Positions 3,445-23,359 of a stretch of DNA of 41,798 bases are shown here, one piece after another. Source of the DNA: Candidatus Omnitrophota bacterium (GTDB taxonomy: Bacteria; Omnitrophota; Gorgyraeia; Zapsychrales; Zapsychraceae); assembly GCA_029568545.1 (NCBI GenBank), contig JAKQAH010000035.1:1-41798 (forward strand). The letters run 5' to 3'. The first letter of the stretch is position 1. Every line of letters starts with the position of its first letter. The translations under genes were made by a program, and so were the position numbers. Under the pieces are notes generated by a model that was given only the letters and a program-made list of their open reading frames with translations, searched no databases and had not been told where the DNA came from.

Positions 3445-3972
3445 CCCGCTATTCCTAACGGAAGTGGACTTTCTCTTCACCGTCGGCTTAACGTTACGGT
3501 GGCAGGTGTAAAGTCTCTGCACGTTCCCTGAACACTTAGGATCAGGGCTTCGCTCAGGATTACCCGCCGGTTTCCCGGTTTGGGCTTCCCTGAATTAGCC
3601 TGCTGTTTCAACCGGCGTTTCCGCCGGAAGCTGCGTCTGAGCATGAATTTCACGATGACAATTGGCACAAACAAGAAGACATTTATCGATCTCTTCTCGT
3701 ACCTTAGTCCAACTTCGAGTATAACCTTTACTCGAAACACTGAAATCCTTTTGATCAGGATCTCGGTGATGGAACTCTAAGGCTTCGATACAGCGGTCAT
3801 AACCACAAATCTGGCATCGACCACCCTTATATTCAACTGCTTTCTGTCTCATTTTCTTACGTCTTTTATGGACAGCAGCAATTAAATATTGCCGGCGATC
3901 TTTGTATGTCCGCGTATCTTTTCTTGCCATTGCCCTCATCCATTTGCTCGTTCCGCCTTCGGCGGAACTCTC
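3438..3972 (-). mobile_element. Group I intron (resembles the IC3 tRNA-intron subgroup), 535 nt, inserted between anticodon positions 35 and 36
   Basis: 5' exon ends in U, intron ends in G; P-like AATTCAGGGAAGCC (3583-3596), Q-like AATCCTGAGCGAAGC (3547-3561), R-like GTGCAGAGACTTTACACC (3505-3522), S-like AAGAGAAAGTCC (3466-3477); P3 GCAGG/CCTGC, P4 TCAGG/CCTGA, P7 GACTTT/AAAGTC and P8 CACCGT/ACGGTG found by eye. Confidence 0.92.
3595..3939 (-). CDS. HNH endonuclease encoded within the group I intron (putative homing endonuclease)
   Basis: CQICGYDRCIEALEFHHRDPDQKDF...CLLVCANCHREIH, an HNH/zinc-finger signature; start may be the second Met. Confidence 0.88.
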   Translation of the reverse strand: MRAMARKDTRTYKDRRQYLIAAVHKRRKKMRQKAVEYKGGRCQICGYDRCIEALEFHHRDPDQKDFSVSSKGYTRSWTKVREEIDKCLLVCANCHREIHAQTQLPAETPVETAG

Positions 3973-4021
3973 ACAGCCACTTGCTCTACCAGCTGAGCTA
4001 CAGGGGATTAAAATTTCGGAG

Positions 4022-4070
4022 AAATTTTAATCCCCAGCACCCCTTCAAATAACTTGCTGGGTGCAGGGGA
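4022..4070 (-). repeat. Leader hairpin unit upstream of tRNA-Asn carrying a copy of the tRNA 5' end (TCCCCTG)
   Basis: TCCCC-T-GCACCC...GGGTGC-T-GGGGA stem; the 3' strand is also complementary to the tRNA-Asn 5' end. Confidence 0.8.
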
Positions 4071-4135
4071 ATATTCTTTTAAAATTCTCTCCAAAACAAG
4101 GGACACTATAAAGAACAGGGGAAAACGTTATATGG

Positions 4136-12137: not shown

Positions 12138-12320
12138 CTGATCGGTCCCTGGCTTGATCCGGCAACTGGCTGCCCTGGCTTTCAGGGCCCTATAGCTTTG
12201 CCACGGCGCCGCTACATACTAATAGCGTTTGACTCCGCCGAGCCCGACGCAGTTCCCAAACGAAAGTTTTGGAACGAAGTCGGGGTCCTCACCTTGCGAT
12301 GAGTTTGCCTTTTTCGTTGA
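12138..12320 (-). ncRNA. Candidate c-di-GMP-I (GEMM-like) riboswitch upstream of the pseudopilin operon, with an apparent insertion
   Basis: GGCAAACTCATC-GCAA-GGTGAGGAC (P2 with GNRA loop) and GCAAAGCTATAGGGCCC...AGGGCAGCCAGTTGCCG (P3 side) match the GEMM pattern; TCAACGAAAAAG at the 5' edge is perfectly complementary to the terminator segment CTTTTTCGTTGA. Confidence 0.7.
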
Positions 12321-13345: not shown

Positions 13346-13430
13346 TTAAATGAGTACGGCATTTGGTTTTCTCTAAATCAAGGAAAACCAAATACCATTT
13401 AAACTCAGGCGCGTTCTATGAACGCGCCTT
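13345..13430 (-). repeat. Two further stem-loops downstream of tRNA-Ser
   Basis: GGCGCGTTC/GAACGCGCC (about 13408-13428) and GGTATTTGGTTTTC/GAAAACCAAATGCC (about 13357-13396). Confidence 0.65.
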
Positions 13431-13440
13431 CGTATCTAAA

Positions 13441-13527
13441 CGGAGAGGCCGGGATTCGAACCCGAGGTCCCGTTACCAGGACAACTGCTTAGCAGGCAGT
13501 TGCGTTCAGCCACTCCGCCACCTCTCC
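13441..13527 (-). tRNA. tRNA-Ser(GCU)
   Basis: GGAGAGG...CCTCTCC acceptor, GGTTCGAATCC T arm, long variable arm, anticodon loop CTGCTAA; no encoded CCA. Confidence 0.95.
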
Positions 13528-13563
13528 ACAATATAAAAAACTATCTATCAAGGATCAAGAAAA

Positions 13564-13622
13564 GAGAGGTGGCTGTTAGGCTTACCATAATTTTTATTCA
13601 GAAAAAGCCGTCGCCATCTCTA
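13564..13622 (-). repeat. tRNA-Ser leader hairpin unit, proximal
   Basis: AGAGATGGCGACGGC ... GCCACCTCTC; the 3' strand (13564-13573) is the exact reverse complement of tRNA-Ser nt 2-11. Confidence 0.75.
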
Positions 13623-13659
13623 CACCGCAAAGCAAATTAACCCAAGGATCCGAGAGAAA

Positions 13660-13715
13660 GAGAGGCGACTTTTAAGGTTACTATAAACGCCCTTCGAAAA
13701 ACCGGCGCCACCTCT
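13660..13715 (-). repeat. tRNA-Ser leader hairpin unit, distal
   Basis: AAGAGGTGGCGCCGG ... GTCGCCTCTC; similar layout to the proximal unit, about 95 nt further upstream. Confidence 0.7.
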
Positions 13716-13752
13716 TCCCTGTTTGCGGAGCAAAATACAATGAGAACGCTCC

Positions 13753-13781
13753 TTTATACCAGACTTTTCAGGACGTGTAAA
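13753..13781 (-). promoter_or_regulatory. sigma70-like promoter of tRNA-Ser, extended -10
   Basis: TTTACA - 17 nt ending TGG - TATAAA. Confidence 0.7.
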
Positions 13782-17523: not shown

Positions 17524-17602
17524 GTCATTCTGAGCGAAGCGAAGAATCTAGACCGACAAGATTCTTCTACCCCATACTTAAACGATGGGGTATCAGAATG
17601 AC
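17524..17602. repeat. Palindromic repeat between pgaA and pgaB
   Basis: GTCATTCTGA (17524-17533) and TCAGAATGAC (17593-17602), nested AGAATCT/AGATTCT and CCCCAT/ATGGGG arms. Confidence 0.8.
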
Positions 17603-23047: not shown

Positions 23048-23124
23048 TGGTGCGCCTGAGAGGATTCGAACCTCTAACCCTCTGCTCCGTAGGCAGATGC
23101 TCTATCCAATTGAGCTACAGGCGC
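23048..23124 (-). tRNA. tRNA-Arg(ACG)
   Basis: GCGCCTGTAGCTCAATTGGATAGAGCATCTGCCTACGGAGCAGAGGGTTAGAGGTTCGAATCCTCTCAGGCGCACCA; anticodon loop CTACGGA, encoded CCA. Confidence 0.97.
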
Positions 23125-23150
23125 AAATTACAATAATTTTTATTTAGAAC

Positions 23151-23327
23151 AATTTGCGCCAGTACCCCTTCGTTCAAGTCCTGGGTGCAGGCGCAAACGA
23201 CAATAATATTTTATTTAGAGACATTTGCGCCAGTACCCCGTCTACCAACTCAGGGTGCAGGCGCATGCAAAACAAAAACAAATAATCCCCGCTAGTACCC
23301 CATCCAATAACTCCGGGTAAGGCGCGC
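23151..23327 (-). repeat. Three leader hairpin units upstream of tRNA-Arg (23151-23197, 23222-23266, degenerate 23287-23327)
   Basis: TTTGCGCCTGCACCC-N-GGGGTACTGGCGCAAAT repeated with 70-nt spacing; the tRNA itself begins TTTGCGCCTGTAGC in the same register. Confidence 0.88.
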
Positions 23328-23359
23328 ATGAAAAATATTATCAGTAACTTTTGTGCAGT

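Follow-up and report, generated by a model that had tools for sequence, protein, structure and literature searches.

Inverted-repeat units preceding a tRNA-Ser gene of an Omnitrophota bacterium as probable modules of a palindromic repeat family at tRNA gene ends

REP, BIME and REPIN sequences are short imperfect palindromes that are mostly extragenic, cluster in alternating orientation and vary in copy number between relatives (PMC2817692, PMC3116915), and REP sequences reach more than 100 copies per genome (PMC2817692). According to PMC2800124, GC-rich palindromes flank tRNA genes in the mitochondria of Neurospora crassa (Yin et al., 1981, cited therein), and hairpin elements occur in sponge mitochondria. 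The window analyzed in this study is the whole stretch of 41,798 nucleotides from a Candidatus Omnitrophota bacterium (contig C39 of a 1.4 Mb assembly that is 78% complete), and the assemblies compared with it are fragmented metagenome bins.

All elements of the tRNA-Ser leader in the window lie on the minus strand, between a sigma-70-like TTTACA-N17-TATAAA promoter (13753..13781) upstream of the array and the tRNA-Ser(gct) gene (13440..13527; identified by ARAGORN and Rfam RF00005, which place some tRNA starts one base off). This promoter, proposed in the initial annotation, was confirmed at 13781-13753; a consensus promoter scan did not list it because the scan rule demands T at the last position. 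Its -10 context, AAGTCTGrTATAAA, also precedes tRNA-Ser(gct) in the congener G004, and the leader from there to the tRNA differs. The leader comprises two inverted-repeat units of 57-58 nt, each containing the tRNA 5' end once in sense and once in antisense. In the distal unit, the sense arm S1 (AAGAGGTGGCGCCGG, 13716-13702) includes a 10-nt match to the tRNA-Ser 5' end (AGAGGTGGCG, 13706..13715), and the antisense arm A1 is GTCGCCTCTC (13660..13669). The proximal unit contains the sense arm S2 (AGAGATGGCGACGGC, 13621-13607; listed as AGAGATGGCGACGG, 13608..13621), which like A1 was assigned from the sequence and a shuffle test, a hairpin with a conserved core, here termed M (GGCTTTTTCTGAATAAAAATTATGGTAAGCC, 13579..13609), and the antisense arm A2 (GCCACCTCTC, 13564..13573; inverted repeat I1), which is the exact reverse complement of tRNA-Ser nt 2-11 (13526-13517). 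A spacer in which inspection revealed a diverged M (TTTTCTTGAT...TATATTGT, 13528..13563) separates A2 from the tRNA and closes the hairpin A2:tRNA. The units start 94 nt apart, in agreement with the roughly 95 nt first reported, and the coordinates and pairings originally given for them were all confirmed. A further palindrome with an M-like loop (TTTTCCTTGATTTAGAGAAAA) lies 3' of tRNA-Ser on the same strand (13358..13396; inverted repeat I2, 93% complementary); outside the model matches described below, it likely belongs to the same repeat family.

Folding and shuffling were used to evaluate these pairings. The hairpin formed by A2 and tRNA nt 2-11 (-19.3 kcal/mol, z -3.5) is the strongest single hairpin of the Ser leader relative to shuffles, and the two units folded alone are weaker (z -1.4 and -2.4). 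The pairing between the distal antisense and the proximal sense arm, with one bulge, also holds (-19.5 kcal/mol, z -2.4). Among 20,000 dinucleotide shuffles of the leader, an antisense match of at least 10 nt appeared in 2 and a sense match of at least 10 nt in 21, and both together in 0.

When matches were anchored on the tRNA start, an AT-rich core M of about 22 nt (TTTTCTrrATAAAAAtAtTGTGGTAA) emerged that is common to the Ser, Arg, Ala and Gln units and is found between the antisense arm A and the tRNA and also within many unit hairpins. We built three covariance models: R1 from seven units of the source genome, R2 from the hairpin that runs from A through the spacer into the tRNA start, and R3 from 31 M hairpins with Ser excluded. 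The pairs of R1 covary, and its matches include leaders of other tRNAs in genomes of the same genus and in another family. Covariation is strong in R2 (score 0.623 vs 0.176) and is also present in the M-hairpin stem (0.538 vs 0.162 shuffled; double-changed cells 68 vs 21). R3 detects the Ser core at 13609-13579 with E = 2.6e-5 in 102 kb and 3.7e-4 genome-wide, and R2 matches the same hairpin with E = 2e-5. The initial annotation had held that the Ser loops differ from those of the Asn and Arg units and that a common logic, not a fixed sequence, is shared. The second part survives in that the architecture (sense copy, inner hairpin, antisense, spacer and tRNA) is repeated at many tRNAs, extends to other genomes and covaries; a fixed core exists as well, and since the proximal Ser loop is matched by a model built without Ser, it is incorrect to limit what is shared to the logic.

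Inspection of all tRNA leaders in the source genome revealed units at Arg(acg) (x3), Arg(tcg), Ala(ggc) (x2), Gln and Ser. In the window, three units precede tRNA-Arg(acg) (23120..23329, minus strand; R1 at 23153-23197, 23224-23267 and 23286-23329, R3 at 23120-23160 and 23190-23231). One unit also lies in the leader of an intron-split tRNA-Asn (4008..4073, minus strand; R1 at 4028-4073), with a 15 bp hairpin GGGGATTAAAATTT...AAATTTTAATCCCC. The intron in this tRNA-Asn is of group I (RF00028, E=1.9e-16) and carries an HNH-like ORF (window 3445-3688, minus strand; exons to about 4007), and similarly split tRNA-Asn starts occur in G004 (L377) and probably G024 (L241). No unit was seen at first inspection in the Met, Phe, Glu, Leu, Gly, Cys, Thr and Trp leaders of this genome; R3 later matched an M hairpin 5' of one Met tRNA (L018). 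Thus the concern originally raised, that other tRNA genes might lack comparable leaders, was not borne out: many tRNAs here and in relatives carry units. As for other Ser tRNAs, the 78% complete source assembly yielded only the one Ser tRNA (gct); the unit at Ser(gct) of G003 is present as a direct tandem copy, and variants occur at Ser(gct) of G004 and at Ser(gga) of G003 and G004.

R2 matches were obtained in 29 of 83 genomes of one Omnitrophota order, nearly all of them immediately 5' of tRNAs, and phylum-wide matches fall mostly within that order; in another order of the phylum, R3 matched in only 3 of 47 genomes. A search of genome contigs with the exact tRNA-Ser pattern gave no match, and the matches of a degenerate pattern outside Omnitrophota are mostly ordinary -10 boxes. 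In several families of the order, arrays accompany the same isoacceptors, Arg(cct) among them, a pattern suggestive of selective retention. The promoter of tRNA-Arg(acg) is kept in four congeners with -10-to-tRNA distances of 235 (G000), 189 (G001), 152 (G004) and 24 nt (G002), the last having the same promoter and no array.

Several other hairpins were noted in passing. The Arg leaders L111, L083, L038 and L256 contain extra long hairpins inside the M core, that is, nested palindromes mostly with TGTTG/TGATG-type loops. A second leader type, TTGCACCC..GGTTATTAGA..GGGTGCG followed directly 5' of the tRNA by TAAATTT..CACTTATGTTCGC..CCATAAGTG..AAATTTA, precedes Val-tac, Pro-tgg, Pro-cgg and Lys (L006, L009, L014, L012, L042); it has a related inner hairpin and no tRNA 5' copy. 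A dispersed hairpin, ACCCC-loop-GGGGT within TTCT(T)C..GAATGA(C) intergenic repeats (window 17558-17602, plus strand; L055, L056, L049), resembles the inner hairpin of the Arg and Asn units.

The sequence next to the antisense arm indicates which of the possible palindromes is maintained. Moving outward, the nucleotides after A pair with the immediate upstream flank of the tRNA at 88/100/100/81/69% (successive positions) and with the flank of the S1 copy at only 62/50/44/56/50%; therefore, the palindrome across the gene boundary is the one maintained. Pair counts are 286 Watson-Crick, 4 G.U and 4 A.C in gene-spanning stems and 378, 6 and 12 in unit palindromes. Mismatched stem positions thus do not favor G.U over A.C, as those of a helix under selection in RNA would, and count against a dedicated leader switch, with the qualification that the counts are small and some A.C pairs ancestral.

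Palindromes spanning gene ends were then evaluated independently of M in six genomes, using block-shuffled flanks (200 shuffles each). At p<=0.01 they were detected at 47 of 225 tRNA 5' ends vs 0 of 41 in non-Omnitrophota controls, and at 21 of 225 tRNA 3' ends vs 1 of 39 in controls, a ratio of about 2:1 between 5' and 3' copies. Among M hairpins adjoining tRNAs (R3, all tRNA loci, six genomes), 44 lie 5' of the gene in sense orientation, 12 lie 3' of it in antisense orientation and 4 have the opposite polarity; counts for contexts other than the 5' side are biased low because R3 was trained mostly on 5' copies. The hairpins of the first two groups point into the gene, so that the arrangement is mirror-symmetric and 3'-side copies, in RNA, would carry the complement of M. 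Several tRNA-Arg genes (L032, L159, L256, L294) are flanked on both sides, and their 3' arm matches the 3' strand of the acceptor stem. An array before a 5S rRNA gene (L229) copies the 5S 5' end. All R3 matches in the source genome are at tRNA genes, one of them at a contig end that cuts into a presumed tRNA, and those in G016 are also at tRNA genes with one exception. Arrays also occur in intergenic DNA of G023 and G004 that holds no Rfam RNA gene (L363-L376, L378). A separate case is tRNA-Phe of G023 (L240/L275), where an array of roughly 15 M hairpins in both orientations surrounds one gene.

With some confidence, we propose that each Ser unit is a module of a REP/BIME-like family in one Omnitrophota order, made up of overlapping palindromes that abut tRNA and 5S gene ends and have an arm copying the gene end. 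The architecture, the enrichment at both tRNA ends, the covariation, the polarity, the change in copy number between close relatives and the dispersed copies are all direct results of genome comparison. Each module consists of a conserved M core inside an inverted repeat of changing sequence. Neighboring palindromes overlap, and therefore their common arms of 5-10 nt alternate as S, antisense-S and S; the resulting chain reads S-hairpin-A-hairpin-S, with the tRNA gene standing in for one hairpin. Where an array meets a tRNA or 5S gene, the innermost palindrome closes on that gene with M pointing inward, and its outer arm carries, in reverse complement, the gene's first or last 5-12 nt together with the adjacent flank. 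By eye, module borders read GYCC...GGRC-TG; the foot beside a REP palindrome is of the GTAG or CGTC type.

Such arrays may grow and move as DNA palindromes, through single-stranded DNA transposition and/or snap-back template switching. Most economically, the M hairpins would seed or carry a DNA palindrome, which would lengthen outward by copying the opposite arm; a functional gene end would act as a fixed template, and the neutral outer arm, copied from it, would be kept perfect. We infer this copying from the comparison of sequences. The mirrored 3' copies and the arrays away from RNA genes fit a family of palindromic repeats that has adapted to gene ends better than they fit a logic specific to tRNA leaders. 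Situated downstream of the promoter and ahead of the tRNA, the 5' array is probably transcribed, and pairing of this RNA with the 5' strand of the emerging tRNA could be a by-product or a secondary use; given the 5' excess and the retention at isoacceptors, we regard a real influence on tRNA expression as possible though not probable. The same two observations count against the repeat-family reading, as does the lack of an autonomous mobilizer tied to the repeats. If the family reading is right, these repeats borrow sequence from the adjoining gene, repeatedly and beside the genes that cells conserve most. How DNA palindromes grow could then be tested directly by reading the arm as a copy of the tRNA end, its fixed template, and the arrays would provide a natural test of the leader and trailer pairing that a tRNA precursor tolerates.

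Alternatively, the arrays may act as RNA switches that tune tRNA output. Pairing of A with S1 would let the tRNA fold, and pairing of A with the tRNA 5' strand would span the RNase P site and block it; as variants, M could bind a protein or ligand that shifts the equilibrium, or a leaky terminator could arise from the S1:A hairpin and the U-rich start of M. In line with this, the array sits between promoter and tRNA, A and its flank prefer the tRNA and its own flank over S1, RNAfold (secondary structure only) pairs tRNA nt 1-5 with the leader in most full-length precursors (0.99 for the Ser leader of the window), and the isoacceptor retention and 5' bias fit as well. However, the mirror-image 3' copies, whose RNA has the complement of M, and the dispersed copies without RNA genes are at odds with it, as are the absence of a G.U preference, the array-free Arg(acg) leader of G002 and the failure to find a terminator at the Ser array. 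In view of the 3'-side and dispersed copies, we consider pure leader regulation possible but unlikely. A combined version is somewhat more doubtful still, namely that 5' palindromic repeats have been domesticated as bistable leader RNAs, which would sequester the tRNA 5' strand over the RNase P site and so exert gene-by-gene cis control of tRNA supply.

Guide-targeted single-strand transposition would likewise place repeats at gene ends: the A guide would pair with the gene end and set an M hairpin beside it, similar to IS200/IS605-type guide-target pairing, and one guide could serve both gene ends because acceptor stems are self-complementary. The inward polarity at both ends and the presence of the same arms on either side of one tRNA agree with this mechanism, and Y1 transposases (Y1_Tnp) are common, occurring in 13 of 15 genomes. 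Their presence does not track the repeats, however, and none was found in the repeat-bearing G034; attribution of the repeats to Y1/RAYT transposases is not supported for this reason. Moreover, the pairing runs into flank outside the gene, and every copy already matches its own target, such that the guide would have to be remade at each insertion, which makes this mechanism improbable. Chance, or ordinary inverted repeats close to a single tRNA, might be suggested by the ease with which short GC-rich matches arise and by the moderate folding of the lone Ser units, but it is refuted by the shuffles, the enrichment over shuffles and control genomes, the conserved core and the homologous arrays across an order.

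Several other candidates were discarded. M is not a promoter, as Arg arrays have no -35 hexamer at the right distance and the real promoters lie upstream of the arrays, nor is it an antitermination boxA, which in the rRNA leaders of this lineage reads TGTTCTTTGAAAT, unlike M. Compensation for a missing RNase P was excluded by the presence of RNase P RNA in 8 of 8 genomes tested. A known RNA family was also excluded: apart from tRNA, rRNA, the group I intron and a single c-di-GMP riboswitch, Rfam returned nothing above threshold, and the weaker matches (up to E=5) resemble chance hits. The clear c-di-GMP riboswitch is in G023 (L369); a weak sub-threshold c-di-GMP-I-GGC match (E=0.01) lies before pilin-like genes in the window at about 12157-12318 (L025 217-378, minus strand).

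Among described systems, T-box leaders and tRNA-related attenuators share with the Omnitrophota units a leader RNA with alternative pairings that involve tRNA sequence. The Omnitrophota units differ in preceding tRNA genes rather than amino-acid genes and in occurring also 3' of genes and at sites lacking an RNA gene. No leader family of Rfam matched them at the gathering level, and the T-box model gave no match there or up to E=5. The mirrored 3' copies and those without an RNA gene equally separate the units from regulatory RNAs confined to leaders. The mitochondrial palindromes, as far as the account consulted (PMC2800124) describes them, are similar in being palindromic repeats beside tRNA genes that spread in intergenic DNA, whereas the Omnitrophota repeats are bacterial and have an AT-rich core and variable arms matching their own tRNA end. 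With REP and BIME sequences they share short imperfect palindromes and arrays of alternating S and A arms with mixed M orientation. Unlike REP sequences with more than 100 copies, they have 7-36 R3 matches per genome (E<=0.05, at incomplete model sensitivity), and no tie to RAYT was found; for these two reasons they are not classed as REP. No such repeat family at tRNA ends was found in Rfam or the literature searched, and arms that copy a gene end combined with inward polarity are, as far as searched, undescribed. The Omnitrophota repeats also differ from REP and BIME sequences in their strong placement at tRNA ends with inward polarity, their conserved AT-rich core and their arms, which copy the end of the adjacent tRNA or 5S gene.
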